64,000 bases of DNA from an uncultured Clostridia bacterium (lineage in GTDB: Bacteria > Bacillota > Peptococcia > Peptococcales > Peptococcaceae): the NCBI GenBank assembly GCA_944391285.1, contig CALXSY010000004.1, positions 1 through 64,000 of the forward strand, written 5' to 3'. The notes beneath the pieces are model-generated. The model made no database searches. It worked only from the letters and a program-made list of their open reading frames with translations, and had not been told where the DNA came from. The translations under genes were made by a program, and so were the position numbers. Below, in pieces: positions 6,107-38,082 of this stretch. How positions within the stretch are numbered: position 1 is the first letter of the stretch; every line of letters starts with the position of its first letter.

Positions 6107-6194
6107 AAAAATCCTCCTTCTATTATTTCCAAATACTTTACTATTGTTTTATTACAGCAGAATATTCTCTGTTGTTATTTACTTTAAAGACGTA

Positions 6195-7649: not shown

Positions 7650-7709
7650 ATCAATTCCTCCGTTCAAAATGGATTAATTATAAAATACGGTTATAAAACA
7701 TTCCAGCAC

Positions 7710-7774
7710 AAATGAGAAGCCATATCAAAAATTTTTACCGGCAAAACAATTATTATATTTTCAACTTCTCATTT
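7710..7774 (-). repeat. Inverted repeat in the leader of transporter 1
   Basis: Two 10-bp arms, AAATGAGAAG at 7710-7719 and CTTCTCATTT at 7765-7774, lie 45 bp apart between the promoter and the start codon. In the transcript they could form a long hairpin holding the 5' leader; as DNA they could be a repressor site. The function is unknown. Confidence 0.45.
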
Positions 7775-7806
7775 ATTGATACTTAAATAGCGATCGCTTT
7801 AAATTA

Positions 7807-7880
7807 ATTATATATTCCGCAGCTTATTTTTGCAATCAGACATTTTTTTATAACAATTACCTCATCAAAAAATTTTTAAC
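7807..7880 (-). promoter_or_regulatory. Promoter and putative LysR operator of transporter 1 / phosphodiesterase 1
   Basis: On the - strand: -35 TTGCAA (7830-7835), 17-bp spacer, -10 TATAAT (7807-7812). The dyad GTTAAAAATTTTTTGAT occupies 7864-7880, exactly 28 bp upstream of the -35 box, with its centre near -72. The same dyad with the same spacing stands before phosphodiesterase 3 and transporter 3. The position suits the recognition site of a LysR-type activator. The rest of the 400-bp gap (7650-8050) holds no gene. Confidence 0.7.
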
Positions 7881-7950
7881 CTTCGTTAAATTAGGTATTG
7901 CCCACGCAAGATACCGATTTTGCTCAAATCTGCCTTTATATCTGCAAAAT

Positions 7951-7994
7951 TTTTTCAAAAAAAATGAGTCCGGCAATTTAACGGACTCATTTTT
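7951..7994 (-). terminator. Terminator of transporter 2 / phosphodiesterase 2 unit
   Basis: ATGAGTCCG (7964-7972) pairs with CGGACTCAT (7982-7990), flanked by A and T runs on both sides. On the - strand the hairpin is followed by eight T, about 60 bp after the stop of phosphodiesterase 2. Confidence 0.88.
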
Positions 7995-8050
7995 AATCGT
8001 TTTCTAAGATCTTAAAACCTCAGCTTTGCCCCAAGGCTTTAGGGTGAAAA

Positions 8051-10066: not shown

Positions 10067-10143
10067 GTGTTTTTAACTCCTCCTTTAATTTATTCTGATA
10101 AGGAAAATTTTAAAGCAAAACCTTCCTTTTAAATTTATAACCA

Positions 10144-10174
10144 TCCGGCAAGCAACACAGCTTTGTTTGCCGGA
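10144..10174 (-). other. Intercistronic hairpin between transporter 2 and phosphodiesterase 2
   Basis: TCCGGCAA (10144-10151) pairs with TTGCCGGA (10167-10174), and the stem extends inward through G-U, C-G and two A-T pairs around a 7-base loop. No T-run follows on the transcribed strand, so it is more likely an RNA-stability or partial attenuation element than a terminator. Confidence 0.5.
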
Positions 10175-10212
10175 ATGATCACATCATTAAATCGTTAGCT
10201 TATTTTAGCTAA

Positions 10213-11682
10213 TTAGCCTGCATAGGGGAATAATAAGTTAGCTAAAGGCCAGCCGACAATATAGCTGGTGCCTACATACAGCAATACGGCAAATATGCAA
10301 TATAAATGCAAGGTTTTATTGGGAATCCAGCCTAAGTTACTGTACAGCATTGCGCCAACCGGGCTCGCACTGGGCAACATAATACCAAAGTCAACAAACA
10401 GGATCAGGCAAGCACAAAGAGCTACCGGGTTAACACCAAAGGACATACTGATGGAGAAAGATACCGGTATCAGCAATGCACCAACAACGGCGTTATTAAT
10501 AAAGTTGGTAATAATACAGCCAATCATCAAAATGCAGATTACATAAGTGAACGGAGACATTTTGCTTAAAATAGGAGCCAAGAATACTTTAATCCAATCA
10601 CCGACAGCTGCTTCCGGACTGTTAATGAAAGAGCATAATACTAATGCTGTACCAAACATAAAGATAACATTCCAGATTACGTTAGAAGCGATCATATCTT
10701 CAACCTTCATCAAAGGCTCACCGTCAATACGCAGCAAGCTGGTAACAGCAACGCAAACCATCGCAATACCCGGGGTATTTAAGCGATTTAAAATTGCTGT
10801 GATGCCAAGACCTTTGGGCAAAAAGCTTGGTGCAACCAAAACAACAACTAAAATAACAAATAAAGTTAAGCAATATTTCTGTTTTTTAGTCATTTTCTGT
10901 ACTTCTTGTCTTTCCGGTACATAATCAACAAATTTCGATAAATCGATTCTTAAGATAAATCTGCTGAATAACATCCAAACAGCAAACATAGCCAAAACAA
11001 CGGTAAAGGCGTAAATCATCCAAATACCATAGTCATATGAACCATCATATAAACCATTAGAGCCGGCTGCCAAGAAGCCGAAGTTAGTCAAAATAGCCGG
11101 TTTAAATGGCAGCATGAACATACCGAAACCTACAACAACCGGGGTGGTGAATATTGCCCAAGCGGCAGTTTTACTGCCCTTCTCATAGCCTACAGCCGCA
11201 AACATGGACCATAATAATCCCCAGAATGCTAATACTACCGGAGCCTCATTTAAACAAGCTCCACAGATTAACTCAGCCAAATAAATCATAGTGAATAAAA
11301 GCCATGGTTTTCCATGAGTAAATTTAAGGCTAATTGACCAATTGGCAATATACTGAATTAAATTAGAGTTGCTTAAAAGTCCAACACAAATCATTAACCA
11401 AAAGCATGCTGCCACTGCTGGTGTGCTCATTAAACTGCCCCATCCTACCAAAGGATTGGCTGCGCCGGAAAAACCAAACAAAACTAAAGCTGCAATACTG
11501 GGCCAGATAAAGTTTGTGGTACACCAGCCATAAATTGCACCTAAGAAAATACCTACAACGGTAATGCCTGCTTGAGTCATCGGTTCCGGAGCGGGAATAT
11601 ACCGGAAAAATATCATTATACAAAGTGTTATGGCACAATGGATATACCATTTAATACTACTGCTTTTTGCTGCTACACTCAT
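10213..11682 (-). CDS. DASS/SLC13-type anion transporter 2
   Basis: 489-residue membrane protein, very similar to transporter 1 throughout (shared IKWYI-type start, PAPEPMT, VGIFLGAIYGWCTTN, FINNAVVGALLIPV, MLPSASPVGAMLY). About 12 membrane segments are expected. As in copy 1 the sodium-binding SNT motifs are altered. The ATG follows GGAGATGAAATT. It is paired with phosphodiesterase 2, downstream. Upstream lie 250 bp that separate it from phosphodiesterase 3 on the same strand, with a strong palindrome and a weak promoter but no copy of the dyad found before copies 1 and 3. It may therefore be regulated differently or be read partly from the phosphodiesterase 3 transcript. Confidence 0.87.
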   Translation of the reverse strand: MSVAAKSSSIKWYIHCAITLCIMIFFRYIPAPEPMTQAGITVVGIFLGAIYGWCTTNFIWPSIAALVLFGFSGAANPLVGWGSLMSTPAVAACFWLMICVGLLSNSNLIQYIANWSISLKFTHGKPWLLFTMIYLAELICGACLNEAPVVLAFWGLLWSMFAAVGYEKGSKTAAWAIFTTPVVVGFGMFMLPFKPAILTNFGFLAAGSNGLYDGSYDYGIWMIYAFTVVLAMFAVWMLFSRFILRIDLSKFVDYVPERQEVQKMTKKQKYCLTLFVILVVVLVAPSFLPKGLGITAILNRLNTPGIAMVCVAVTSLLRIDGEPLMKVEDMIASNVIWNVIFMFGTALVLCSFINSPEAAVGDWIKVFLAPILSKMSPFTYVICILMIGCIITNFINNAVVGALLIPVSFSISMSFGVNPVALCACLILFVDFGIMLPSASPVGAMLYSNLGWIPNKTLHLYCIFAVLLYVGTSYIVGWPLANLLFPYAG

Positions 11683-11787
11683 AATTTCATCTCCAATTTA
11701 ATTATTTTTTTATAAATCCTTCAAAAAAACATTACAAAACCTGATTTTCAATTAAAAATTCTTTAATAGATAATTATTAATATTAAA

Positions 11788-11817
11788 ACTATAGCCGCAT
11801 TTGCATTTCATATTCAA
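11788..11817 (-). promoter_or_regulatory. Possible promoter of transporter 2
   Basis: On the - strand: -35 TTGAAT (11812-11817), 18-bp spacer, -10 TATAGT (11788-11793). It is a moderate match. The 28-bp-upstream dyad of the other units is absent here. Confidence 0.4.
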
Positions 11818-11828
11818 TGATTATAACT

Positions 11829-11873
11829 GTGTTAACTCAAGCAAGAAAGATAGCTCTTGCCTTGAGTTAACAC
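11829..11873. terminator. Long palindrome between phosphodiesterase 3 and transporter 2
   Basis: GTGTTAACTCAAG (11829-11841) pairs perfectly with CTTGAGTTAACAC (11861-11873); CAAGA/TCTTG extends the stem past one bulged base. The T-run is on the + strand side (CAATTTTT), whereas on the - strand, the direction of phosphodiesterase 3, only weak T-richness follows. It may be a leaky terminator or an operator for the adjoining transporter 2 promoter. Confidence 0.5.
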
Positions 11874-11934
11874 CAATTTTTCCTTTGGTTATCTATTCCT
11901 TAAACTTCTCTATGAGTAAAAGAAATGTCAAACA

Positions 11935-14001
11935 TTATTTTGTTTCTATTTCTCTGGTAAATTGCTCTTCTTCAAATCCCTTTAATGCCTGCCAAATTAC
12001 ACCTCCCTCACAGTTGCTCGGCACACTGTTGCCGCACAAATAACAAATTGTCGGTACAACATCTGTAATTCTGATCACGCGGCGAATCTTCTCATTTTGT
12101 TTAAAGTCCGCGCCAATCATCATGCAGAGATTGTTCATTGAATATTCCTCGTGCTCAACTGTGCTCGGAACATTACCGTGTGTTACACAGTAAGTAGGTG
12201 TTAACTGGAAGAAGATATCTCCGCAATGTTTGCCACCCATTCCTATCGCTTCCATTTCGTCACGAGTCATGCAAAAGGCTATTACACGTTTTCCGGTTTG
12301 AGGATGTCTGTAGCTGTACAGATCGGAAATGATCTTTTCAACCAGCTTTTGGTAATCCTCAGGCTCAACAATTCCTTTGGGATCTCTGCCTTTCAAATTG
12401 ATATAAATATTGGACAAACGTGAGCTGACAGCCGTCGTTTTGCTCCAATCAATCTGAGGCTTAGGGTCATTCTCTGTGCCTTCAACTAAAACAGTATAAC
12501 CCAGCTCCGTCATAACAGGAGTTGCGATACCCCTCAAAAAGCCGATGCCGGGGTTCTCGTCACCGGGCGAATTGGGGATTGCTGCGTGGTCAGAGGTAAT
12601 GATTATGTTGGTGTTTTCGTCTAAATATTCTAATACTGCGCCAACATATTCATCGTTAAATTCGTACATTTTTGCCAGCATTTCCTGATAATGCTCATAG
12701 TTTTCATTCCATCCCGGCAAAGTCTGGTTAATATACCAATGATTATAAATATCTATGCCGTGTAAATGTACATAGAATAATTGCCAGTCTGAGAATTCTT
12801 TAAAGAGCCAGTGAGTAGCATCAATATGCCATTTATAAACTTTTTCCCAGATTTCCAGCTCGAATTTGCTGTATTTCATTCCATAAGGGCTCAGCCAAAT
12901 CTGCGGCATGAATGGTCCAATTTCATCAAACATCTTTTTGCCTATGCTGCGAGGATAAAAATAATCATAATCATCAACATTCAAAGCATGGCTAATCAAT
13001 ATTTCTGCTCCCGTGCCATCTTCTTTGATATTCATAAGCCGCACAAAATAACCGACATTCACTTTCTCATTGTTATTCATATATACGTCGCGGATGGGAT
13101 CGCTCCATTTATCCAAGCCAACAACTCCTAAGGGCTGAGGATCTTTTTTATTGCGATATATGGTCAAGGTATCATATTTTTTCCCATCAGATGCGGTTAA
13201 TACAAAAAATCTGCGGATAGTGCTGTCTGCCAAAGGTACTACTGCTACTTTTGCGCCCTCCGGCAAATCGATTGTCCAGCCTACGGGATCATTTAAGGGG
13301 GAGATGATCGCATCTGCTGAATCTTTTTCTGCACCTTTCGGTGTTTTGCCGACGATATCAAAGGGGAATTCAATCAAAGGAGTATCGACAAATGGATCTG
13401 ACTCTTTAGTCTCTTTTTCAACAGCTTCCTTTTGATCATCGCCGGTCATATTTTCTAACATTTCAGCAGTAACAATACAGTCGCTGGCGTTATCTTTAGC
13501 AATATGGGGAATAACCTTTAACTCACAGTCAGTTGCCAAAGTCACTACTTTAGGAGCGTCAACCTCACTGCGCAAAAACGGCACAACGCCGGAACCATCT
13601 ACATAAACACCATACTGATCATCTTTAATGCGCGGCGGCCATGCTTCGCAGTAATTTAGCATAATGCTGCGCTTGCCTTCACGGCTAAATGCTTCCCAAA
13701 TTAAATCCGACTCAACTCTCCGAGAATCCCAGTTCATCTCGCAGGTCATCAAATCTTTGCCCTCAGTTTGGTTCCAATAGCAGGTTACGCCATGCGTTTT
13801 GGGCCAGTTTCCGGTTGCTAACGATGCCCAGTTGGGCGGGGTAACTGAGGGGAAGGCTCCAAGCATTGACATTTTATCGGCAATTACACCATTTTCTAAC
13901 ACTCTCTTTAAATGCGGCAGCCTGCCTTGATCAATAAGCCGTTTGATAACATAAGGATCTGCTCCGTCTAAACCAATCATCATTGCTCTTTTTTTCCCCA
14001 T
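11935..14001 (-). CDS. Alkaline-phosphatase-superfamily phosphodiesterase 3 (divergent clade)
   Basis: 688 residues, clearly the same architecture as copies 1, 2, 4 and 5 but a separate clade, shared with the pseudogene at 26099-27180. Metal Asp12 (GLDGAD), nucleophile Thr54 (SVTPPNW), the D-x3-H pair in GIDIYNH, and SDHA are all present; the last His lies in VTHGN. The loop that reads WPGSSWPPSSD in the others is CEAWPPR here, and the C-terminal PIFLAAG segment is replaced by LCMMIGAD, so the active-site pocket should differ. It has no export signal. Unlike the others it has no transporter directly upstream; it has its own promoter with the shared dyad and is divergent from LysR gene 2. Transporter 2 lies downstream. 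Confidence 0.83.
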   Translation of the reverse strand: MGKKRAMMIGLDGADPYVIKRLIDQGRLPHLKRVLENGVIADKMSMLGAFPSVTPPNWASLATGNWPKTHGVTCYWNQTEGKDLMTCEMNWDSRRVESDLIWEAFSREGKRSIMLNYCEAWPPRIKDDQYGVYVDGSGVVPFLRSEVDAPKVVTLATDCELKVIPHIAKDNASDCIVTAEMLENMTGDDQKEAVEKETKESDPFVDTPLIEFPFDIVGKTPKGAEKDSADAIISPLNDPVGWTIDLPEGAKVAVVPLADSTIRRFFVLTASDGKKYDTLTIYRNKKDPQPLGVVGLDKWSDPIRDVYMNNNEKVNVGYFVRLMNIKEDGTGAEILISHALNVDDYDYFYPRSIGKKMFDEIGPFMPQIWLSPYGMKYSKFELEIWEKVYKWHIDATHWLFKEFSDWQLFYVHLHGIDIYNHWYINQTLPGWNENYEHYQEMLAKMYEFNDEYVGAVLEYLDENTNIIITSDHAAIPNSPGDENPGIGFLRGIATPVMTELGYTVLVEGTENDPKPQIDWSKTTAVSSRLSNIYINLKGRDPKGIVEPEDYQKLVEKIISDLYSYRHPQTGKRVIAFCMTRDEMEAIGMGGKHCGDIFFQLTPTYCVTHGNVPSTVEHEEYSMNNLCMMIGADFKQNEKIRRVIRITDVVPTICYLCGNSVPSNCEGGVIWQALKGFEEEQFTREIETK

Positions 14002-14039
14002 AATAATTCCTCCTAATATATTTCATTTCCTTGTCTTTT

Positions 14040-14113
14040 ATTCTAATCTTTTTTCTTTTTTATTGCAAGCAAAGATTCTTTGATTACCATTAGTCCATCA
14101 ATAATTTTTTAAT
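14040..14113 (-). promoter_or_regulatory. Promoter and putative LysR operator of phosphodiesterase 3
   Basis: On the - strand: -35 TTGCAA (14063-14068), 17-bp spacer, -10 TAGAAT (14040-14045). The dyad ATTAAAAAATTATTGAT occupies 14097-14113, again exactly 28 bp upstream of the -35 box. The 350-bp divergent gap (14002-14352) holds this promoter, the LysR 2 promoter and no gene. Confidence 0.68.
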
Positions 14114-14228
14114 CATAAGCTTTTGCCCATTGTGTTTTACGTTCAAACTATTGCTTATGTTTCTCCCTGAAATCCCTGAATTTGCTGTCTAACAGTTCTA
14201 TTTTCTTTATAGATACTCCGCCCGAGCA

Positions 14229-14258
14229 TTGACAAAAAATATTATTTTATGTTAAAAT
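14229..14258 (+). promoter_or_regulatory. Promoter of LysR-type gene 2
   Basis: TTGACA (14229-14234), 18-bp spacer, TAAAAT (14253-14258), about 95 bp before the start codon, leaving a sizeable untranslated leader. Confidence 0.6.
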
Positions 14259-14352
14259 TTAATTATCGATTCAACATTTGCAAAAATTTTAAGATAACTG
14301 CACTTTTTTGTTTTAGCAGCTCCATCTGTAAACGATTTTGGAGGAATAACGA

Positions 14353-15306
14353 ATGCGCATAGAACAATTCCAAGCAGTATTGGAAATATCCAAAACCAAA
14401 TCAATGAAAAAAGCCGCTGAAAATCTCCATTCTTCAGCTCAAAATATGAGTATCTTAGTTAGCAATCTGGAAAAAGAGTTAGGCGTGCAATTATTTATCC
14501 GCAATAAATACGGCGTTTTTTTAACACCTGACGGCGAACGTATCTGTCAGCAATTGGAAAAAATCATGCTTTTAATTGATGATCTGATTCCTCTGGCCTC
14601 CAACTCCAAAAATAATCTCAGCAACCCCAAGCTTCTCAAAAGGTTTAATATTCTTTCCGCCCCTTCGGAAGTGGCGATGTCGTCTTCTTTACTAAAAAAG
14701 CTGTGTAAACATTATACTGTGGAAAATTCCTCTATCCACATTTATGACGATACCTTTATTAACAACTATTTTACGGAAACCATCAATAACTTTGTGCAGA
14801 ACTTTGATTTAGCCTTGACAGATATGGCGCATGAAGAATTCATGGCCAATAAAGCTTATCTGAAAAAGCTTCCTTGCTTTTTCTTATCCACCAGCGCCTT
14901 AGGTGTGCATATAAGCAAGAAAAATAAACTGGCACAAAAAAGCAAAATCTCCATTGCCGAAATTATCAATGAGCCCCTGATTATTCGGGTTACAAACGAT
15001 GATGCCATGGGTTATTTGCTCAAATACCTCGTTAATTTAGGGGTAAATATTAAACCCAAATACAAGGTAAACTCCGAAAAAATCTGCAAACAATTTATTT
15101 CTGACAATATGGGCTACAGCCTTTTGCAATCCAATGATTTCAATAATAACGAAATTCCCGAGGATACGGTAATAATTCCTTTAAAAGAAAAAATATCCAT
15201 AGTTCATTTAGCTATCATCAATCCTGCAATTCAAGGGCATCCATGCTACAATACCATCTGCAACTTCTTAAAGAAAAACTACAGTAATATGTACCAAATT
15301 TTTTAG
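14353..15306 (+). CDS. LysR-type transcriptional regulator 2
   Basis: 317-residue paralogue of the regulator at 3056-4024. The N-terminal helix-turn-helix (about residues 14-36, KTKSMKKAAENLHSSAQNMS) is almost the same, so both may bind the same DNA site, while the effector domains have diverged (for example DNDD-type acidic loop in copy 1, VTNDDAMG here). The ATG follows TTTTGGAGGAATAACG. It is divergent from phosphodiesterase 3 and convergent with phosphodiesterase 4, with a shared bidirectional terminator. I infer that it controls the phosphodiesterase 3 promoter and/or the transporter 3 / phosphodiesterase 4 unit through the dyad seen before both. The effector is not known. Confidence 0.9.
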   Translation: MRIEQFQAVLEISKTKSMKKAAENLHSSAQNMSILVSNLEKELGVQLFIRNKYGVFLTPDGERICQQLEKIMLLIDDLIPLASNSKNNLSNPKLLKRFNILSAPSEVAMSSSLLKKLCKHYTVENSSIHIYDDTFINNYFTETINNFVQNFDLALTDMAHEEFMANKAYLKKLPCFFLSTSALGVHISKKNKLAQKSKISIAEIINEPLIIRVTNDDAMGYLLKYLVNLGVNIKPKYKVNSEKICKQFISDNMGYSLLQSNDFNNNEIPEDTVIIPLKEKISIVHLAIINPAIQGHPCYNTICNFLKKNYSNMYQIF

Positions 15307-15316
15307 CTTACCCTTT

Positions 15317-15353
15317 AAATAAAAGCACCTAAAAAATAGGTGCTTTTATTTTT
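15317..15353. terminator. Bidirectional terminator between LysR 2 and phosphodiesterase 4
   Basis: A 15-bp perfect stem, AAATAAAAGCACCTA (15317-15331) with TAGGTGCTTTTATTT (15337-15351), followed by T-runs on both strands. It ends two convergent genes. Confidence 0.9.
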
Positions 15354-17388
15354 AAACTTCTCTGTCTAAAATCTGATAAATCGGTGCGCCTTCGCATTGA
15401 GCCGGCATTCTTACACCGCCAATAATAGCCAAAGTAGGCGCAAAATCTACTTGGCGAATAATACGCTTTGTCAATTCGCCTTTCTTAATCCCCACTCCGG
15501 CAGCAATAAGAATAGGCTGCAAAGAGGTGTAGTTTAAGCCGTAAGTGGTAGTAATCGCATCAAAATGGTCATCATTGTATCCTTCTGCCGTCCATACGAT
15601 TATATCGCCGCATTGATCTCCGCCATAGCCTAAGATAACTGCATCTTTATTGCGCAAAGCCAAGCCAATTACGCGCTTGCCGCTGATAGGATGTTTGACG
15701 CCATACAAAGCTGTCATGATTTCCTCTTCTACTTCATACTGATCTTCCGGTTCAATGATTCCGTGATCATATTTGGATTTTAAATTCAGATATATATTGT
15801 TGTTGCGGCTGTTAATTGCTTTAGTTTTGCTCCAATCAATCTCATGTGTGTCGTTGCCGTTTTCGTCTTTAACCATTACGGTAAAGCCCAAATCACGCAT
15901 GATGCCGCCGGCATGCACTCCGCTGCCTTCACAAATCTGCGGGCGCTCATATTCCGGACAAACCAAGGCATGGTCGCTTACCAAGAAAATAGTCCAGCCT
16001 TCGTCCAAATAATGCAGAAATCTGCCTACATAATTATCTGTTTGCTGATATATTTTCTCCATAAAATCAATAGCTACTTCTGTAGGATATTGACTGTAGC
16101 TTCTGTGCTTAATATTGCGGGCAATAACGTGCATTTGCGCATCAATATTATGATTGTGGCTGAAAATAACGTCATATTTTTCATGGCTGATTAAATAGTG
16201 CAAAGCATCTGCCTGCCAATCACTATATCTGTCCCAAAGAGGGAGCATACAAGTATACAGATCTTCTCCTTTGCCTACTTGCGGCACTAACATCGGAGCA
16301 TCTTCCGGATAGCCGACATTTTCAACTACCTCATCATATAAATGTTTCGGATGCCAGACACTGTTGTCGTGAATATCCAGCGCTGCCGAGACAAATAATC
16401 TCACATAGCTGCCGTCGTCGGCAATTTCCAGCAAGCTCATGCTTTTAATGGTGTCAACTTTTTGCTCATCACGATAGTCAACATCAAATATATTATGAAT
16501 CATTTTGCCTTTGGTTAAAATAACCAAGGGCTCAGTATTCTTTTTGCTTGTATAAACCTTTACGGTATCATATACCCCGGCGGCATTTTTTAATACCAAG
16601 GCTGGTCTTCTGAGCAAACCGCCGCTGGCTAAAATAGTAAATTCCAGAGCCTCTGCCGGTGCATCAGCCCACTCTTTGGCTTCTTTGATTGGGCTCAAGG
16701 AATAATCACAGTTATGAGCTTGAGAATATCCTTCTGTTCCTTCTTTATTGTCCAAAACAACATGCAGGCTGTCTTGACCGGTCATAGCAGCTTTTGCAGC
16801 ATCTCCGCCGTCGTCCTCCACTTTTAAATCATGGATTACGCACGGAGCAACGCCTACCGCTTCTCCCGGTTTTTTGTAAGTAAGCTCGGTAATTGTTTTA
16901 TCGGCGACCGCAAAAAACTGCTGCTTAACAATAGCCGTACCCAAATTTACGCCGATCGGCTCAGTACCGTCTACCACGTGCAAATTAGGGCTGTCAGAAG
17001 ACGGCGGCCATGAAGAGCCCGGCCAATGCCAGACTAATGTTTTCATGCCGTTTTCCGCAAAAACATTCCATAATTGTTCTGCGCGGCAGCGTCTTGAGTC
17101 AAAACCATAGCAAGTGTATTCCGGTCCTTTGTCGCTTTGCAAAGTAAAGTCGGTGATTCCGTGAACATTGGCATAACAGCCGGTTGCCAATGTGGTCCAC
17201 ATCGGCGGGGTGCCGGTAGGATGACCGCCTATCATTTCCAAATCCTTATTAGCCGCTCCGCGCTCCAATAATTTTTGCACATTAGGCATTTTGCCTTCCT
17301 TTAAGTAATGCTGCGTAGCACGGGGATCCATACCGTCAATACCGATAATTAAAATTTTGTTGTTGATTTGTTTTCTCTCTAAACCCAT
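15352..17388 (-). CDS. Alkaline-phosphatase-superfamily phosphodiesterase 4
   Basis: 678-residue paralogue close to copies 1 and 2. Catalytic positions seen: Asp18 (GIDGMD), Thr60 (TGTPPMW), D-x3-H in IDAQMH, SDHA, and the His of NDDHFD. The WPGSSWPPSSD loop is kept. The section around residues 185-225 and the segment after SDHA (CPEYERPQICEGSGVHAGG) differ from copies 1 and 2. It is cytoplasmic by prediction. The start follows GCAAGGAGGGTAAAAA. It lies 62 bp downstream of transporter 3 in a two-gene unit whose promoter carries the shared dyad. The stop codon touches the terminator that it shares with LysR gene 2. The reaction is inferred as hydrolysis of an imported ester. Confidence 0.85.
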   Translation of the reverse strand: MGLERKQINNKILIIGIDGMDPRATQHYLKEGKMPNVQKLLERGAANKDLEMIGGHPTGTPPMWTTLATGCYANVHGITDFTLQSDKGPEYTCYGFDSRRCRAEQLWNVFAENGMKTLVWHWPGSSWPPSSDSPNLHVVDGTEPIGVNLGTAIVKQQFFAVADKTITELTYKKPGEAVGVAPCVIHDLKVEDDGGDAAKAAMTGQDSLHVVLDNKEGTEGYSQAHNCDYSLSPIKEAKEWADAPAEALEFTILASGGLLRRPALVLKNAAGVYDTVKVYTSKKNTEPLVILTKGKMIHNIFDVDYRDEQKVDTIKSMSLLEIADDGSYVRLFVSAALDIHDNSVWHPKHLYDEVVENVGYPEDAPMLVPQVGKGEDLYTCMLPLWDRYSDWQADALHYLISHEKYDVIFSHNHNIDAQMHVIARNIKHRSYSQYPTEVAIDFMEKIYQQTDNYVGRFLHYLDEGWTIFLVSDHALVCPEYERPQICEGSGVHAGGIMRDLGFTVMVKDENGNDTHEIDWSKTKAINSRNNNIYLNLKSKYDHGIIEPEDQYEVEEEIMTALYGVKHPISGKRVIGLALRNKDAVILGYGGDQCGDIIVWTAEGYNDDHFDAITTTYGLNYTSLQPILIAAGVGIKKGELTKRIIRQVDFAPTLAIIGGVRMPAQCEGAPIYQILDREV

Positions 17389-17450
17389 TTTTTACCCTCC
17401 TTGCTAATTTTGATATAAATATTAAAAGTTTGCACTGTAAAACATTTCTG

Positions 17451-18890
17451 TTAAAAAATTATTCTGCCCAACGGTATGCCTATCACTACCATATCCAAAT
17501 AGATCAACACTATTGTCAGCAGTGAAAAGATCAAGCAATATTTCATCGGCAGCCATTGTTTTTGGTTGTACATCATTGCCGCATTAACAGTGGCAGAAGG
17601 CATCAAAAAGCTGGCTGAGCTGATATAAACCGCCATTGAAGTGAAAATATAGCTGCTTGCTCCATCTCCCATTAAAACGTGCATAATCGGAATAAACATA
17701 AAGCTGGCGGCTACCGTATTGGTTACATTGGCAATCAAGGCATAGATTAGGGTTGCTGTTACGAAAAATAGCATTTTGCTCATGCTGTTTTGCATTGGCG
17801 CCATAACATTGATGAGCAGCTCGGAAACGCCGGTGCTTTCGTCAGTTACGGCACCTACCAAAGTATAGATAACCGCAATCATTAAGACGATATCCCAAAT
17901 TACTCCTTTGGAAAAAAGTTCGTCAAAGTTAAAAACCTTTTTCTTATCCAAAGTCAGCATAAGGGCTATCATTATAACGAACAATCCCCAGCCGCAGTTT
18001 GACAAATTGTTGAAAATTTCCTTAATAATATTTCCTTCCGGCAGCACGCTGGGCAATATTAAGCCACCGATAAAGACGACAAAAATCGCACTTACAATTT
18101 TCTGCTCCTTGGTCAAAGGCTGGTCATTTGCTTGAAAGATATCATCGTTTTTCAATAAAGAAACATCCGGGCGAATGATATATTTAATAAGCAAAAAATA
18201 AATCACAAACGGCACTACCGAGCAAGGGAAAGACCAAATCATATACTTTAAAGGATTCATCACCAGCTCACCTTGGCTGGCGACACTTAAAAGTCCAAAG
18301 TTGGAAGCTACGCTGACTTGAAATGACGGTATACTTGCTCCCAATGTTGCTGTAAATAAAACGCCGAAAACCATAACTATCGGCCATTTATCCCCGCTTT
18401 TAAAGCCCAGTGTCGGAAATAAATTGAATAATAAGCTCCAGCAGATAATCGTTGACGGAATCGAGTTGATGAATATTGCCACGATATATGCTGCCAACAA
18501 AAACATGAATGTAATCACCCATGGCTTGCCTTTAGCAAAATTGAAAGTAACCATTTTGTTAACCATCTTCTCTGATAAACCGCTTGTCTCCAACATTGAG
18601 CTCAAAATCAAAATAGATATTATATAAAGTACGGTGCTGTCGCCAAAACTCATTTTCATTATTTCCGGCACAGTGGAAAATCCACTGAAGCCTAAAGCTA
18701 TGATTGCCATAAAACTTGGAACTGCTACACCTATGGTGCAATAGCCATAAATTACGCCGATAAATATTCCCACTACATTGCTTCCATACTCTGTGATTAC
18801 CCCCATAGCCGGCAAAAGCTTTGAGCCGAAAATGATGCACAGCGTAATAAGCAGATTTATATAATATTTTCTCTCTACTAAATTGCCCAT
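17451..18890 (-). CDS. DASS/SLC13-type anion transporter 3
   Basis: 479-residue polytopic protein, a more distant paralogue of transporters 1 and 2. The hairpin motifs read INSIPST in the first half and VTNTVAASFMFIPI plus LMPSATVNAAMMY in the second, so one near-canonical (S/T)NT site is kept here, unlike in copies 1 and 2. About 12 membrane segments are expected. The ATG follows GGAGTATATT. It precedes phosphodiesterase 4 by 62 bp. Substrate differences between this pair and the others are likely because both the transporter and the enzyme loops vary. The import direction is inferred from the cytoplasmic location of the enzyme. Confidence 0.86.
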   Translation of the reverse strand: MGNLVERKYYINLLITLCIIFGSKLLPAMGVITEYGSNVVGIFIGVIYGYCTIGVAVPSFMAIIALGFSGFSTVPEIMKMSFGDSTVLYIISILILSSMLETSGLSEKMVNKMVTFNFAKGKPWVITFMFLLAAYIVAIFINSIPSTIICWSLLFNLFPTLGFKSGDKWPIVMVFGVLFTATLGASIPSFQVSVASNFGLLSVASQGELVMNPLKYMIWSFPCSVVPFVIYFLLIKYIIRPDVSLLKNDDIFQANDQPLTKEQKIVSAIFVVFIGGLILPSVLPEGNIIKEIFNNLSNCGWGLFVIMIALMLTLDKKKVFNFDELFSKGVIWDIVLMIAVIYTLVGAVTDESTGVSELLINVMAPMQNSMSKMLFFVTATLIYALIANVTNTVAASFMFIPIMHVLMGDGASSYIFTSMAVYISSASFLMPSATVNAAMMYNQKQWLPMKYCLIFSLLTIVLIYLDMVVIGIPLGRIIF

Positions 18891-19058
18891 AATATACTCC
18901 TCATTTAATCTTCATGTTTTAATTTTATTGACCCAAGTAAAAAGCAAACTTTAAAATAATTTTTCAAAATATTCAAAATATATTTAAAAAATATCTTTGC
19001 CTTTTTACCTCATACCTATCCATAATAAATGCTTATTGCTGATGATCATCTTAAATTT

Positions 19059-19132
19059 ATTATATATTTAACATATTAAAATGGCAAGCAAAGTTTTTTT
19101 TATGATATATTTCCTATCAAAAATTTTTTAAC
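19059..19132 (-). promoter_or_regulatory. Promoter and putative LysR operator of transporter 3 / phosphodiesterase 4
   Basis: On the - strand: -35 TTGCCA (19082-19087), 17-bp spacer, -10 TATAAT (19059-19064). The dyad GTTAAAAAATTTTTGAT occupies 19116-19132, exactly 28 bp upstream of the -35 box. About 160 bp of AT-rich leader follow before the start codon. The rest of the gap 18891-19357 holds the terminator at 19173-19207 and nothing else that I see. Confidence 0.7.
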
Positions 19133-19172
19133 TAACAAGTCTTCAATCAGCTCTCAACTTTGATTTCAGTGC

Positions 19173-19207
19173 AAAAAAATGCAGCAATTCATGTTGCTGC
19201 ATTTTTT
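19173..19207 (-). terminator. Terminator downstream of the 19358-20158 gene
   Basis: GCAGCAA (19181-19187) pairs with TTGCTGC (19194-19200), and flanking A-run and T-run extend the stem on both sides. On the - strand it is followed by seven T, 150 bp after the upstream stop codon. Confidence 0.8.
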
Positions 19208-19357
19208 GTTTGTTTTGATAGCTTTGCCCAAATTTATCTATGCAAACTCTATCACATTCTATGAAAGTTATTAAACATTTTTCATCAAGACTTTACCAGC
19301 GCCCTAAATTATTTTCACAATAAATTATGCTTAGACGCTGTTCCCCAAATGCTTCTT

Positions 19358-20158
19358 TTAATCATCCTTTAATGGCAGAGTAAATTTTGCTTCTAAGCAT
19401 AGCTGTAATAGCTCCGGATCAAAAATACCTTTTAAATAATCCGTAAAATCAGCTTTTATTTGATACCATTGTTGCTTTAAAAGATATGTTTTTCTAAGCA
19501 AACTGCTTACCGCTGCGCCTTTTTCCAAATACTCAAACCACTTTTTGACAACAGCCGGCCAATAGGCATTGGTGTATATCTGCCAGCTGTTTTCGTAATT
19601 ATACATAAAACCATACACATTCTTCTGCTTTTCCGTCAGTTCATTATGGAGCAGCAGGACAAATTTGTCCTTAAATTGTTCAAAAAATTCTTGGCTTATT
19701 ACCTTTCTTCTTCTCAACTGCGCCAAAATCATCATTAAAGGCAGCATTTTTTCTTGCAGCTGCTCCTTGGTTTGCTGAGCAAAATACTCTGCCACTTTAT
19801 TTGCAAGCATCTTATCTTCTGCTTCAAGGATACTCATTTCAAGTTTTAGGCTTTTACCATACAAAGTATTAAGTTTATCTCTAAGTTCCCCTAACAATTG
19901 TTCTTGAAATTGTTTGTCCCCGATATCGTAGCTTCTGCGGCTTATCAGAAGATAAGGTGATAATGATTTTCCCTGCTGTTGCTTTTCTAAAAATTTTTCT
20001 GCGCAAGTCTCTTCTTTAGTAGCGTATTCTAATTTTAATTGATTCTCATCCGCCCATAAAAATCCAAACAATTGATATTCTTGTCCGAAAAATCCCTCTT
20101 TATTTAATTCTTCTGCGACCATACCCGAATATATGTCTCTATGTATTTCTAATGACAT
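19358..20158 (-). CDS. Protein of unknown function, paralogue of the 744-1682 gene
   Basis: Unrecognised 266-residue soluble protein, rich in Leu, Lys and Gln and probably all-helical, with no export signal. It resembles the 744-1682 product: an IHRD motif at the start, FGQEY-x4-G, an S-(K/R)RS step near residue 74, VYGFMY in the middle and a YLLKQ segment. It is about 45 residues shorter. The ATG follows AGTTAGGAGGGGG. It stands between transporter 3 and phosphodiesterase 5, the only gene type in this array that is neither enzyme, carrier nor regulator. Presence of both paralogues beside the array hints at a common context, but no function can be assigned. Confidence 0.7.
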   Translation of the reverse strand: MSLEIHRDIYSGMVAEELNKEGFFGQEYQLFGFLWADENQLKLEYATKEETCAEKFLEKQQQGKSLSPYLLISRRSYDIGDKQFQEQLLGELRDKLNTLYGKSLKLEMSILEAEDKMLANKVAEYFAQQTKEQLQEKMLPLMMILAQLRRRKVISQEFFEQFKDKFVLLLHNELTEKQKNVYGFMYNYENSWQIYTNAYWPAVVKKWFEYLEKGAAVSSLLRKTYLLKQQWYQIKADFTDYLKGIFDPELLQLCLEAKFTLPLKDD

Positions 20159-20314
20159 TTTCCCCCTCCTAACTAAAATTTAGATTGCCCTAAATTAACC
20201 AATTTCTTTAAAAAATTATTGCTTCACCAAAAAAATCTTTTTTAGTAATATTCTGCCCTCAACATTAAACTTTTATTTTTCTTCCAAACTTTTCTTAATC
20301 TGCATTTTAAAGCC

Positions 20315-20343
20315 ATAAAAGGTGACCCAAGGTCACCTTTTAT
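20315..20343 (-). terminator. Terminator of transporter 4 / phosphodiesterase 5 unit
   Basis: ATAAAAGGTGACC (20315-20327) pairs with GGTCACCTTTTAT (20331-20343) around a 3-base loop, 27 bp after the phosphodiesterase 5 stop codon. Confidence 0.82.
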
Positions 20344-20369
20344 GCTCTTCCAATTTCCCCTGAAATGGA

Positions 20370-22433
20370 TTATTGATCTGCCAAAATCTGATATACAGGT
20401 GCCCCTTCACATTGTGCCGGCATTCTCAAGCCAAGCAAAACAGCTATAGTGGGCGCAACATCAACTTGACGAATGGTGCGTTTTACATCATCATCATGTA
20501 TAATCCCGGCACCGCATGCAATAAAGATTGGAGATACGGTGGTTCCGTAATAACTGCGGTAAGTAGACAGACCTTGTCCATGCTCGCTTACATGTCTTTC
20601 TCTGTTCATGTATACAATATCGCCGGTATACTGACCATCTAAGCCGATGACTTTTGCGTCTTTATTATGAAATGCCATAGCTATGATGCGGTCTCCGTTT
20701 TCATCACGATATCTATATAAATCGTCAATAATTTGTTCTTCCAAATCATACTTATCTGCCGGGTCAACTATGCCATGAGCATCGCGTCCTTTTAAGTTAA
20801 TCCAAATATAGCTGGTGCGAATAGCGATAGCTTTGGTGTTTTCCCAGTCGATTTCTGTAGTATCATTGCCATTTTCGTCTTTGATGAATTGGGTGTAGCC
20901 AAGCTCTCTCATAATACCGGCGCTGACACCTGCTGCACTGCCTAAACGTGCTAACGGCTTATCATGAATCATCTCACCATGGTCAGATGTAATAATAATA
21001 GTCCAGCCTTCATCCAATAAATGCATATAGGTGCCGATATACTCGTCCGCTACTTCATAGGTACGGTCAATTTGTTTTTGATATTCAGCTTCCGGTTCAA
21101 ATCCCGGTTTCTGACAAGCGTAATTCCAAATCTGATGAGCGGAATGGTCAATAAAATGATGGTGGCTGAATACTACCTCGATACCTTTTTCTGCGATCAT
21201 ATAATTAATAACTCGGGATTGCCACAAAGCATTTAACCGCCACAGAGGAGTTAAAATCTTTTGCGCAAATTCCAAGGAAGTTCCTCCCATTTGCGTAAAC
21301 GGCGGAACATAACCGCAGTTTTCAATAGCTTCTTTATAAATGGCTTTTGGAGACCAGCGATCATCACAATCTACTTTAAAGGCGGTACTCATCCACATTC
21401 TAACCAAAGAGCCATCTTCTGCTAATTCCAGCAAACGATAATAGCGAGTTGCCATGGTTTTTTTGCCGTTTTCGATGCATTCGTCAAGTACATCGACAGC
21501 AAATACATCACCTTGCAAAACGCAAAGCGGTTCAGCATCTTTTTTGCTTCTGTAAACAGCAACTTTAGCATATTTGCCGTCTTCGCCTTTTAAAATCAAG
21601 CAGGGACGGCGTAATTGCCCGCCGGAAGTATAGGTAACAAATTCCAAAGCACCATCAGGAACTGCAAAGCTCCAGTTGTTAGGCGCAGATATAGTACTTT
21701 CAGTTTTATCATACGGCACTTTTGCCAAAGAACCTCCGGCAGCTGCAATATCATGAAAGTCAACATTCTTAATTCTCTTCATTTTATAGCGGTTAAGCAG
21801 CAGTTCAACTTTATTATCTTTATTAAATTCAAAATCATCATATTTATTTTCTTCTTCCTCTTCTTCTAAATCCAATTTATCGATAACGCAATCAGTAGCT
21901 GCATCACCTAAACTTTGAGAGGTAATATGATCGATAAATACATTCTCTTTAATATCCTTGGAAGCAACGATATATTTTTCAATATCAATATTTGCTATCG
22001 AATAGTTAACCGAAGCCGGTTGAGTGCCGTCTACTACAAACAAATTTTCACTGTCAGAGCTTGGCGGCCAAGAAGAACCCGGCCATTGGAATACCAAGGT
22101 CTTCTTGCCTGCTTGAGCAGTAACATTCCACATCTGCTCAGCCTGGCACAAATGAGAATCTAAGCCATAAATAATTGTGTCAAGATTTTCCGGATCTTGA
22201 TTCCAAAAATCCGTAACCCCGTGAGTAGCCGGATAACAGCCGCAAGCTAAAGTTGTCCATTGGGCAGGAGTAATTGTGGGCATTGCCCCTAACAACTCCA
22301 AATCATGACGAGCAGCACCTCTTTCCAGTATTTTTTTGACATTAGGCATTCTGCCGGCATCTACCATGCGGCGCGTAGTATCGGGTTCCATCCCGTCTAA
22401 GCCTAAAACTAAAACTTTGTTTGATCTTGCCAT
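20370..22433 (-). CDS. Alkaline-phosphatase-superfamily phosphodiesterase 5
   Basis: 687 residues, intermediate between the copy 1/2/4 group and copy 3. Metal Asp13 (GLDGME; the second acid is Glu instead of Asp), nucleophile Thr55 (TITPAQW), D-x3-H in FIDHSAH, SDHG, and the final His in VSEHGQG, which lines up 16 residues before SPIFIACG. The WPGSSWPPSSD loop is present. A run of acidic residues (EEEEEENKYDD) lies in the insert near residue 195. No export signal. The start follows TAAGGAGGAAAAAACA. It is 66 bp downstream of transporter 4. This unit lacks a LysR partner and instead has a divergent Crp/Fnr-type gene, so its control probably differs. Confidence 0.84.
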   Translation of the reverse strand: MARSNKVLVLGLDGMEPDTTRRMVDAGRMPNVKKILERGAARHDLELLGAMPTITPAQWTTLACGCYPATHGVTDFWNQDPENLDTIIYGLDSHLCQAEQMWNVTAQAGKKTLVFQWPGSSWPPSSDSENLFVVDGTQPASVNYSIANIDIEKYIVASKDIKENVFIDHITSQSLGDAATDCVIDKLDLEEEEEENKYDDFEFNKDNKVELLLNRYKMKRIKNVDFHDIAAAGGSLAKVPYDKTESTISAPNNWSFAVPDGALEFVTYTSGGQLRRPCLILKGEDGKYAKVAVYRSKKDAEPLCVLQGDVFAVDVLDECIENGKKTMATRYYRLLELAEDGSLVRMWMSTAFKVDCDDRWSPKAIYKEAIENCGYVPPFTQMGGTSLEFAQKILTPLWRLNALWQSRVINYMIAEKGIEVVFSHHHFIDHSAHQIWNYACQKPGFEPEAEYQKQIDRTYEVADEYIGTYMHLLDEGWTIIITSDHGEMIHDKPLARLGSAAGVSAGIMRELGYTQFIKDENGNDTTEIDWENTKAIAIRTSYIWINLKGRDAHGIVDPADKYDLEEQIIDDLYRYRDENGDRIIAMAFHNKDAKVIGLDGQYTGDIVYMNRERHVSEHGQGLSTYRSYYGTTVSPIFIACGAGIIHDDDVKRTIRQVDVAPTIAVLLGLRMPAQCEGAPVYQILADQ

Positions 22434-22499
22434 TGTTTTTTCCTCCTTAAAAATGTAAATTGAATTTTCTTAAATGGTCAAAGCCATTGTTAACTAATA

Positions 22500-23948
22500 T
22501 TAATATGGGAACATAATACTGCCTAAAGGCACGCCTACTACAAACATAATAATCATAAATATAATTACATTAGCGACACCTAAGAAATATGCCCATTTCA
22601 TATCGATCCAAACAGTATTGCCAAAAACCAAACCGCTTCTGGAGCTTGCCCCGGCAGTTGCTAACGCACAGCTTAAAACGGAAATGCCTAAGAATGTTGT
22701 AATAACCGGATTTGCTCCGATCATCCCGGTAAAATTCAGGGTTATCGGTACGAATACGGAAAGCAGCACTACATTATGAACAAACTGAGTAATTATGCCA
22801 TAGAAAACAATCAAGGCTAAGTAGAAAACTATCGGCGACAGTCCGGCAAACATTGGGGCAAAAGTTTGGGTAATCTGAGCGATTATACCGGTTTCGCTGG
22901 CCTGCAAACCGTCTATTACAACACAGTTGGCGCACATTAAAAAGACGATAGAAAACGGAGTGCCCATTGTAGCTAATTTGGCAACATCGCAGATCGGTTC
23001 TCCTTTAGAACGCCACATTCCTAAAACAATACAGCAAGCAGCTCCAACACCTATAACGCCTAACTGGTTAATAATAGTTGTTAGGAATAGTTCCTTAGGC
23101 AAAATACTTGGTGCGTACATAACAAGCAAAAAGCCGGCTAAAATTCCCACACCTATTTTTTGTTCTTTATTCAAAACGAGCTTTTCGCCAGTACTTTTTC
23201 TGTTTTTTAAGGGGCTGACATCTATTTTCATCAAAAACTTGCCAATTCCCACAAACCCTATTGTAGAAATAATCGCAATAACCAACATATAAATGGTGTA
23301 CATTAAATAGTTTACTTCATAACCGTTAAAATTTGTTAACGCAGTCAAACCAATTAAACACCAAGCATCCATAGGTTTACTGATCATGCCAATGCCGGAA
23401 ATGTAAGTTACAGCAAAAAGCATAAAGCTGGCAAAAGGCGATTTTTTCTCATAACCTAATTCCTCGCATATAGCATAGGTGATTGGCCACATTACAAATA
23501 TGCAAGCATAAATTCCTACTAAATAGCCTAACACAAATATTAAAGCCATATAAATTGTGATAAATAACCACGGTCTGCCTTCCAAAAGTTTCAGATCGAT
23601 TACCCATTTTGCCAGTACTTGATCTAATTTGCTGTGTTGCACATAAGCAGTAAAAGTACATAATACAAAAATTATAACGCAAATTTGGTACGCAAAACCT
23701 TTATAAAATAAGTTCTGAGCAGCAACTCCGCCGGCAAATGCCATTAGAATTATTGAAAAAAAACTGGGGTAAATTAAATCTAAACAAATCCAACCGAACA
23801 TTAAACCAACAAAAATACCTAAAACTTTCATTCCATATTCAGTTATTGTTCCGCTTGCCGGAATAAACCAACCACTAAAAGACAGCACTACCCAAATAGC
23901 TACTCTTATCCAATAGCCTAAACCATCTTTTTTTACTGCAGAGCTCAT
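22500..23948 (-). CDS. DASS/SLC13-type anion transporter 4
   Basis: 482-residue polytopic membrane protein, the most divergent of the four carriers. The topology and size fit the DASS/SLC13 group; the hairpin positions read YLVGIYACIF, FVHNVVLLSVFVPI and TAGASSRSGLVFGN, so the canonical SNT sodium motifs are essentially lost. The conserved ITEYGMKVLGIFVGLMFGW segment at residues 31-50 matches the equivalent segment in copies 1-3. The ATG follows GGAGGAGATTAC. It is the first gene of the unit with phosphodiesterase 5 and is divergent from the Crp/Fnr-type regulator. The substrate is unknown; assignment to the family is firm by pattern but not by search. Confidence 0.8.
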   Translation of the reverse strand: MSSAVKKDGLGYWIRVAIWVVLSFSGWFIPASGTITEYGMKVLGIFVGLMFGWICLDLIYPSFFSIILMAFAGGVAAQNLFYKGFAYQICVIIFVLCTFTAYVQHSKLDQVLAKWVIDLKLLEGRPWLFITIYMALIFVLGYLVGIYACIFVMWPITYAICEELGYEKKSPFASFMLFAVTYISGIGMISKPMDAWCLIGLTALTNFNGYEVNYLMYTIYMLVIAIISTIGFVGIGKFLMKIDVSPLKNRKSTGEKLVLNKEQKIGVGILAGFLLVMYAPSILPKELFLTTIINQLGVIGVGAACCIVLGMWRSKGEPICDVAKLATMGTPFSIVFLMCANCVVIDGLQASETGIIAQITQTFAPMFAGLSPIVFYLALIVFYGIITQFVHNVVLLSVFVPITLNFTGMIGANPVITTFLGISVLSCALATAGASSRSGLVFGNTVWIDMKWAYFLGVANVIIFMIIMFVVGVPLGSIMFPY

Positions 23949-34729: not shown

Positions 34730-34829
34730 TAATTTGGCGGTTAAAAATCTCTGCAAACTCTACTCTGCGTAGGTTGCTCATCTTCACCAAATATGCTATG
34801 CTTTTTTTGCAAAGAAGGGAGTTGAGTAA

Positions 34830-35414
34830 ATGAATACTTACATCACTGGCTCTGCCATCAAAGCACTCCGCGAGAAGCAGCAGCTGACTCAGCTGCAGCT
34901 GGCAGAAAAATTAAATGTCAGCGACAAGACCATTTCCAAATGGGAAACGGGCAAAGGCTTTCCCGATATCTCGCTGATTGAGCCTTTGGCTAATGTCCTG
35001 CAGGTTTCCGTAGCAGAATTATTATCCGGTGAGCAAATCATAAACACCAATCGAGCCGCCAATATTTTAAAATCCAAACTCTACGTCTGCCCTATCTGCG
35101 GCAATGTCATTCACAGCACCGGTTCGGCAATGATCTCCTGCTGCGGAGTCAACCTGCCGCCTTTAGAAGCCGAATCTCCTGATGACGAGCACCAGATCAG
35201 CTGCGGAAAAATTGAAGACGAATATTTCATCACCATAGAGCACCCGATGAGTAAAAAGCATTATATTTCCTTTATCGCCTATTGTACCGGCAGCCGTTTT
35301 GATTTTATCAAGCTTTACCCTGAAGGCAATGCCGAGGTGCGCTTTTTCAGCCGCAGCCATGGAATATTGTATTGGTACTGCAATCATCACGGACTGTTTA
35401 AAGAGAAAATTTGA
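34830..35414 (+). CDS. XRE-type regulator fused to a desulfoferrodoxin-like domain
   Basis: 194 residues in two clear parts. Residues 5-66 are an XRE/Cro helix-turn-helix (LTQLQLAEKLNVSDKTISKW). Residues 83-112 look like the desulforedoxin iron site: Cys87-x2-Cys90 and Cys104-Cys105, as in desulfoferrodoxin. Residues 117-194 match the superoxide-reductase domain: His121, His138 (EHPM), His144 (KKHY), Cys184 and His187 (YCNHHG) are in the positions of the four His and one Cys iron ligands. The Lys that assists catalysis next to the first His is not kept (DDEH in place of EKH). I infer a redox- or superoxide-responsive DNA-binding protein that uses an iron-protein fold as sensor. The ATG follows AAGGGAG. 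Confidence 0.85.
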   Translation: MNTYITGSAIKALREKQQLTQLQLAEKLNVSDKTISKWETGKGFPDISLIEPLANVLQVSVAELLSGEQIINTNRAANILKSKLYVCPICGNVIHSTGSAMISCCGVNLPPLEAESPDDEHQISCGKIEDEYFITIEHPMSKKHYISFIAYCTGSRFDFIKLYPEGNAEVRFFSRSHGILYWYCNHHGLFKEKI

Positions 35415-35432: not shown

Positions 35433-35471
35433 AATAAAAAGCCCATACCTTGAAGGTATGGGCTTTTTATT
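35433..35471. terminator. Bidirectional terminator
   Basis: AATAAAAAGCCCATACCT pairs with AGGTATGGGCTTTTTATT around a 3-base loop, between the convergent regulator and dehydrogenase genes. Confidence 0.93.
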
Positions 35472-36404: not shown

Positions 36405-36648
36405 TGCTTTAGCGCTTTGCTTCGCTAAAAAGGTATTTTATTATTCTAAATATTAATTTCATATATATTTTTATATTTCTTTTTTTATGTTTAATTTTAT
36501 TTATATATTCGATTAGCGCTTAACCTTCTTTCTGCGCTTTTATTTCTATGCTCCGTCCCTTTTCGGGCGGTATAATGCGCAAATCTTTCGGGCAAAATAT
36601 CCTCGATGCTTAATTTTTCCAGATTAAAATTTGATAGGAGAGGATATT

Positions 36649-38082
36649 ATGAATTCACTTTGGAGCCAAACCTGCCAAATCCCGCCCCGGGATGCCTTAA
36701 AGGGCGATCTGTGCACCCAAGCCGCCGTTATCGGCAGCGGCATGGCAGGAATATTGACCGCCTATATGCTGCAAAAAGCCGGCTACGACACCGTTATCTT
36801 AGAAGCCAAGCAAATCGCTTTCGGCCAAAGCAGCAAAACCTCCGCCAAAATCACTGCTCAGCACGGGCTTATCTACCACAAGCTTATCCATTCCTTCGGC
36901 GAGGACAAAGCCCGCCAATATGCCTTAAGCAATCAGCAGGCAATTGAGCAGTATGCCCAATTGATTGAAGAAATGCACATCGACTGCGATTTTGAGCGCC
37001 GGAATGCCTACCTTTACAGCTCCGACAAAAAGCTTTTAAAGGAGGAATTAGCCGCCTGCCAAAACTTAGGACTGCCTGCTGAGTTAGAGGAACGACTGCC
37101 TTTGCCCTTCACCACTGCCGGAGCAGTAAAGTTCAGCGACCAAGCCCAGTTTCACCCTCTCAAGTTTATCCGCGCTTTAGCTCAGGAACTCACCATCTAT
37201 GAGCAGACTCCGGCTTTGGAGGTTGAGGATAATCTCATTCACACCCCCTTCGGCAAAGTCCGGGCGGATCATATTGTCTTTGCCTGCCATTTCCCCTTTG
37301 TCAATTTTCCGGGGCTTTATTTCACCCGCATGCATCAGGAAAGGGTTTACTTTTTAGCCTTGGAAAACGCCCGCCAATTTGACGGCATGTTTATCGGCGC
37401 TGATGAGGACAGCCTTTCGCTGCGCAATTACGGCGATTTGCTTCTGCTCGGCGGTGCCCATCACCGCAGCGGTGATAATTCTTCTGGTGGTCGCTACGAA
37501 TTACTGCGTCAAAAGGCAAAATATTATTTTCCCCAAAGCCGTGAGATCGCTCATTGGTCGGCGCAGGATTGCTTAAGTGTTGACAATGTGCCTTACATCG
37601 GGCATTTTTCGCCCCATAAGCCCAACTGGTATATTGCTGCCGGCTTTCAAAAATGGGGCATGTCTACCTCCATGGTTGCCGCTAATCTTTTGCGCGATTT
37701 GATAAGCGGCAGAGAAAATCCCGCCGCTTCCGTCTTTGACCCTCACCGTTTCCAAGGCGAGGCTTTGGGGCAAATGGCTCTTGACGGCAAAGAAGCCCTC
37801 AAAGGTTTAAGCAGGCGTTTTTTCTATATTCCTACCGAGCTGGCAGTGGAAATCCCGCCGGATCACGGCGGTGTTGTGCTTCTGGACGGCGAAAAAGTCG
37901 GTGTTTATAAGGACAGCGAGGGTAAAATTTATCCCGTTGACATCCGCTGTCCCCATTTAGGCTGTGAATTAGAGTATAATCCCGACGAACATTCCTGGGA
38001 CTGCCCTTGTCACGGCTCCCGCTTTGACAAGTTCGGGCATTGGCTCAACTCCCCTGCCATAGGAGATATTGCCCATGAATAA
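36649..38082 (+). CDS. FAD-dependent oxidoreductase with C-terminal Rieske domain (YhfW-like)
   Basis: 477 residues. Residues 25-55 form the FAD-binding Rossmann start (VIGSGMAG, then the acid at the end of strand two, VILEAK); the DAO-type oxidoreductase fold runs to about residue 370. The C-terminal Rieske [2Fe-2S] domain has Cys434-x-His436 and Cys452-x2-His455, with Cys439 and Cys454 as the disulfide pair. The architecture matches B. subtilis YhfW, whose substrate is not known. The start at 36649 follows AGGAGAGG; the earlier TTG lacks a site. It overlaps the next gene by 8 bp, so the two are translated together. A cytoplasmic electron-transfer or dehydrogenation role is inferred. Confidence 0.85.
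   Translation: MNSLWSQTCQIPPRDALKGDLCTQAAVIGSGMAGILTAYMLQKAGYDTVILEAKQIAFGQSSKTSAKITAQHGLIYHKLIHSFGEDKARQYALSNQQAIEQYAQLIEEMHIDCDFERRNAYLYSSDKKLLKEELAACQNLGLPAELEERLPLPFTTAGAVKFSDQAQFHPLKFIRALAQELTIYEQTPALEVEDNLIHTPFGKVRADHIVFACHFPFVNFPGLYFTRMHQERVYFLALENARQFDGMFIGADEDSLSLRNYGDLLLLGGAHHRSGDNSSGGRYELLRQKAKYYFPQSREIAHWSAQDCLSVDNVPYIGHFSPHKPNWYIAAGFQKWGMSTSMVAANLLRDLISGRENPAASVFDPHRFQGEALGQMALDGKEALKGLSRRFFYIPTELAVEIPPDHGGVVLLDGEKVGVYKDSEGKIYPVDIRCPHLGCELEYNPDEHSWDCPCHGSRFDKFGHWLNSPAIGDIAHE

Follow-up and report, generated by a model that had tools for sequence, protein, structure and literature searches.

The window, a 64,000-nt stretch of an uncultured Clostridia genome (contig CALXSY010000004.1), contains at 34830-35414 (+) an ATG-initiated gene for a 194-aa protein combining a helix-turn-helix (HTH) domain, a desulforedoxin-like (Dx) metal site and a superoxide reductase (SOR) domain. 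It is the only HTH-Dx-SOR gene found in this 1.7 Mb genome. A ribosome-binding site, AAGGGAG (34815-34821, +), lies 8 nt before the ATG, and an intrinsic terminator at 35433-35471 (+; its stem measures 18 bp when the flanking A/T runs are counted, with a predicted RNA fold of -27.5 kcal/mol, z -6.2) is common to this gene and a convergent SDR gene; the HTH-Dx-SOR gene looks like a single-gene transcript. Close by, 36631-38082 (+) encodes, according to Pfam, a DAO-type FAD-dependent oxidoreductase that carries a fused Rieske [2Fe-2S] domain.

Domain architecture of the HTH-Dx-SOR protein

Pfam and NCBIfam profiles, phmmer and an AlphaFold model agree on an HTH plus a desulfoferrodoxin. The Cro/CI-type HTH domain spans residues 7-66 (34848-35027, +; recognition region VSDKTISKWETGKGFPD), with an HTH_3 match at residues 10-64 (E = 1.6e-14). 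The Dx-like site follows at residues 83-106 (35076-35147, +; Cys87, Cys90, Cys104 and Cys105), where the Pfam Desulfoferrod_N match is weak (0.026) and the assignment comes from alignment to 1DFX and conservation in the family. The SOR domain occupies residues 112-192 (35163-35405, +), and the Desulfoferrodox profile PF01880 scores 25.3 bits against a cut-off of 22.2 at residues 136-192. NCBIfam dfx_rbo spans both parts (residues 82-192, E = 7.7e-10) with a score under its equivalog cut-off, so the protein falls outside the canonical desulfoferrodoxins.

A phmmer comparison with 1DFX (E = 6e-9, residues 83-191) aligned the four cysteines and His121, His138, His144, Cys184 and His187 onto desulfoferrodoxin (Dfx) iron ligands, the latter five corresponding to Dfx H49, H69, H75, C116 and H119. 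Best PDB fold matches to the AlphaFold model (pLDDT 88.5) were the superoxide reductases 2JI2, 1DFX and 1Y07, and for the HTH part the DNA-binding domain of the P22 c2 repressor. The first-pass annotation, which had read the protein as an XRE HTH joined to a Dx-like site and an SOR domain, was thus borne out by profiles, alignment and fold; all nine metal ligands that it named are correctly placed in register with solved desulfoferrodoxins. PADLOC matches to the protein were rejected, as they concerned the HTH domain only.

The architecture itself is not new. SORGOdb (2011, PMC3116461) defined an HTH-Dx-SOR class of 19 members, its text giving no function, operator or targets, and the window protein fits this class, with an HTH at the N-terminus ahead of the Dx-SOR module. 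It differs in its cysteine spacing, CX2CX13CC versus the CX2CX15CC of classical Dx (CXXCX15CC in SORGOdb), and in the loss of Lys48. An open-licence literature search returned no paper on HTH-Dx-SOR function and no biochemistry on any member. The palindrome, promoter layout and candidate targets described below are new in the present analysis and make a class named in 2011 directly testable.

Compared with class I Dx-SOR desulfoferrodoxins (1DFX, 2JI1), the protein has the same fold, both metal sites and the five active-site ligands in register, but adds the HTH, carries Glu for Lys48 and Asp for Glu47, and has shorter loops in addition to its sub-equivalog score. With Cro/CI (XRE) repressors such as P22 c2 it shares the DNA-binding domain and, as predicted here, a palindromic operator overlapping the promoter, whereas its C-terminal half is an iron-enzyme fold rather than a dimerisation or RecA-cleavable domain. 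TrtA of the anaerobe Treponema denticola, a 104-aa XRE protein reported to have no recognisable domain past residue 80 and whose deletion lowers oxygen tolerance (PMC12724145), was rejected as a family member for lack of an SOR half.

Conservation of the metal sites

We retrieved 80 relatives (80 loci, 53-79% identity), mostly from Clostridia and also from Treponema, Dielma (among them the cultured Dielma fastidiosa, L007), Anaerovibrio and one Riflebacteria MAG, with a flavoprotein as the recurring neighbour. Across 78 aligned family members, window protein included, C87, C90, C104, H121, H138, H144 and C184 were invariant (78/78), position 105 was Cys in 71 and His in 7, and position 187 was His in 71 and Asp in 7. 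Exchanges are only of ligand type (C to H, H to D), and the metal ligands are under strong selection. Five loci (L049, L054, L056, L059 and L068) carry both C105H and H187D; they form a subgroup of Lachnospiraceae type whose C-terminal tail is longer and whose metal or ligand may differ.

The helper lysine of the enzyme, Lys48, had been described as replaced in the first-pass annotation, and the equivalent residue is indeed Glu120. Lysine occupies this position in just 2/78 family members versus 15/15 canonical Dx-SORs drawn from the same set of genomes (p = 2e-15 by Fisher test, the sequences not being independent); lysine loss alone is compatible with residual superoxide-reducing activity. 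The Glu47 position is acidic in 54/78 members. Canonical SORs accompany the family in 25/35 genomes, in favour of the explanation that we prefer below, and the 10/35 without another SOR by the same search count against it. The window's genome has two more desulfoferrodoxin-family genes, counted as canonical SORs and both without an HTH: L001 (137 aa), which adjoins a probable flavodiiron protein gene, and L002 (161 aa).

A predicted operator in the promoter

Reading the family upstream regions side by side, we found a palindrome, TCTACGNNNCGTAGGTTG (at least 11/15 positions matching), in 75 of 81; among the six regions without it, several genes are truncated, interrupted or mis-started. The motif carries 26.4 bits of information, its flanks are not conserved (about 0.1 bit per column), and letter-shuffled upstream regions reached 12/15 in 2 of 1,620 cases. 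In the window, the predicted operator TCTACTCTGCGTAGGTTG lies at 34759-34776 (+), with its palindromic core CTACTCTGCGTAG at 34760-34772. Its right end overlaps a -35-like element, TTGCTC (34774-34779, +), followed by an extended -10, TGCTATGCT (34794-34802, +), in which TATGCT occupies 34797-34802. This layout is shared across the family: the -35 hexamer starts with the last three letters of the motif, TTG, and TAnnnT follows after a 17-nt spacer, at identical spacing from the motif, in 74 of the 75 loci. The palindrome centre falls near -43 from the inferred start site, so both repression and class II activation are possible.

A search of 398 genomes from the phylum gave two exact matches to the motif, each upstream of an HTH-Dx-SOR gene. 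Two divergent members of the same family (45-47% identity) have weakened sites at the same position, TCCACGCAGCGTGGATTG, a perfect palindrome, at L193 and TCTACGGAGCGTTTATTG at L192. From this phylogenetic footprint we strongly infer that the protein binds TCTACGNNNCGTAGGTTG and regulates its own gene, and DNA binding with autoregulation can be regarded as well supported at the sequence level. The first-pass proposal that a desulfoferrodoxin fold here forms the basis of a DNA-binding regulator finds support in the HTH and SOR folds, the conserved ligands, the lysine loss and the palindrome in the gene's own promoter.

Several loci carry damaged or rearranged copies. At L140 (site at 142, -) and L145 (site at 460, -) the HTH-Dx-SOR frame breaks soon after its start, apparently from inserted DNA or assembly joins, while the promoter motif is intact. 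Elsewhere, an HTH-less Dx-SOR remnant lies about 315 nt downstream of an intact motif (match L123; remnant L195, 967-1377), and L149 (1501-2043) is an HTH-Dx-SOR remnant with internal deletions. At L191 (1367-2856), the motif lies in front of a brief series of small genes of unknown families, with a divergent HTH-Dx-SOR gene as its last member.

Candidate targets in related genomes

Regulon scans were pattern searches, run in the carrier set of 80 genomes for non-self sites within one mismatch. Within the window's genome, 34759-34776 was the only strong non-coding copy found, and at up to two mismatches no target emerged besides the HTH-Dx-SOR gene itself; the FMN_red and CAT homologues of this genome lack the site. 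Both results count against the favoured explanation. One further match in this genome (C5, L085) lies inside a gene resembling alanine racemase and was attributed to chance.

Across the carrier genomes, the raw number of non-self sites did not exceed that of the reversed-pattern control (about 23 matches), and the case for targets therefore rests on promoter position, -10 spacing and recurring gene types. Sites precede FMN_red flavoproteins at three loci (L119, L124 and L151; genomes G024, G015 and G073) and CAT-like acetyltransferases at L118 and, in an operon with FMN_red, at L124. By genome, the CAT-linked sites fall in G026, in G015 (the operon with FMN_red) and in G001, where the CAT gene is divergent from a second HTH-Dx-SOR gene; second HTH-Dx-SOR copies in G001 and G073 are themselves preceded by sites. 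Each of the five promoters concerned (L118, L119, L120, L124 and L151) has TAnnnT at the exact spacing. FMN_red also lies directly downstream of the HTH-Dx-SOR gene at L006, L010, L012 and L015, and a flavoprotein gene directly follows it in G384, a genome of the window's family; in the window's genome this partner was lost or was never present.

Four other XRE regulators are preceded by a TCATAGG variant, TCTACGAWTCATAGGTTG (L121, 2959; L122, 3352; L152, 1501; L155, -), and the HTH-Dx-SOR family therefore does not have the site to itself; a wider XRE subgroup may share the operator and autoregulate. Three other leads were rejected: canonical SOR genes have no site (best 9-11/15), the MFS transporter gene next to the window's operator lies upstream of it on the same strand with no second site found, and gene neighbourhood, mostly unconserved except for the flavoprotein, is a poor guide.

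Proposed mechanism and alternatives

Domain composition, ligand conservation, lysine loss and the conserved promoter site with its positions can be read directly from the sequences. On this basis we consider it probable that the protein acts as a transcription factor that contains iron, is autoregulated, responds to redox state or a ligand, and works in the manner of SoxR. The N-terminal Cro/CI HTH, probably dimeric, would bind TCTACGNNNCGTAGGTTG, which overlaps the -35 element of the gene's extended -10 promoter, and the C-terminal half would retain both metal sites without the lysine that helps the reaction with superoxide. The protein presumably binds iron, and a change at the His4Cys iron, whether superoxide or O2 oxidises it or NO binds to it, would be the trigger, perhaps relayed by the FeCys4 site. 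The altered iron state could then plausibly alter DNA binding, and with it expression, although superoxide or O2 as the signal is suggested weakly and the sign of regulation, like the choice among superoxide, O2 and NO, is conjectural. In the window's genome, control would fall mainly on the HTH-Dx-SOR gene itself. In relatives the same site is also found in front of genes for FMN-reductase-like flavoproteins and CAT-like acetyltransferases, which suggests a SoxR-like detoxification switch. SoxR itself belongs to the MerR family and holds a [2Fe-2S] cluster. The predicted likeness, a metal-based redox switch over detoxification enzymes, is an analogy of function only; the window protein, with its Cro/CI-type HTH and SOR fold, has no homology to SoxR.

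Unlikely, in our judgement, is a self-regulating enzyme whose SOR half still reduces superoxide while the HTH ties its synthesis to need, with the neighbouring FMN reductase as a possible electron supply. Retention of the five iron ligands and the Dx site, the mostly acidic Glu47 position, the apparent control of its own gene only in the window's genome, the genomes without another SOR and the co-transcribed flavoprotein at some loci all fit an enzyme. However, the lysine present in every canonical enzyme compared is gone in 76/78 members, most genomes already hold a canonical SOR, the profile score falls below the desulfoferrodoxin equivalog cut-off, and unrelated genes in relatives are preceded by the same site.

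We give an equally low probability to a sensor of a signal other than superoxide, either NO or iron/zinc supply read through the loading of the two metal sites. Conservation of the ligands but not of the superoxide-guiding lysine is in keeping with such a sensor, and C105H and H187D are ligand-type substitutions that would also suit other metals or small ligands; yet the motif sites show flavoproteins and CAT-like acetyltransferases instead of metal-uptake or NO-detoxification genes. That the desulfoferrodoxin half is a mere dimerisation scaffold of an ordinary constitutive autorepressor is highly improbable: many XRE regulators autoregulate and the own site is the only one found in the window's genome, but nine metal ligands retained in distant hosts, with ligand-type exchanges only, are more than a scaffold would require.

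Returning to the iron-based transcription factor, we tentatively propose, as somewhat less than an even chance, that anaerobes possess their own family of transcription factors sensing superoxide or redox state, in which an SOR has become a ligand domain and which act through a conserved operator on a SoxR-like regulon of flavoprotein and CAT-like acetyltransferase genes. If true, this would be an enzyme turned sensor of oxidative stress in strict anaerobes.

Other loci in the window

At 4070-23948 (-), five genes resembling type I phosphodiesterase/nucleotide pyrophosphatase are interleaved with four CitMHS/DASS-type transporter genes, and LysR-like genes lie near this array; some of its members were checked with Pfam and the rest were assigned by eye.
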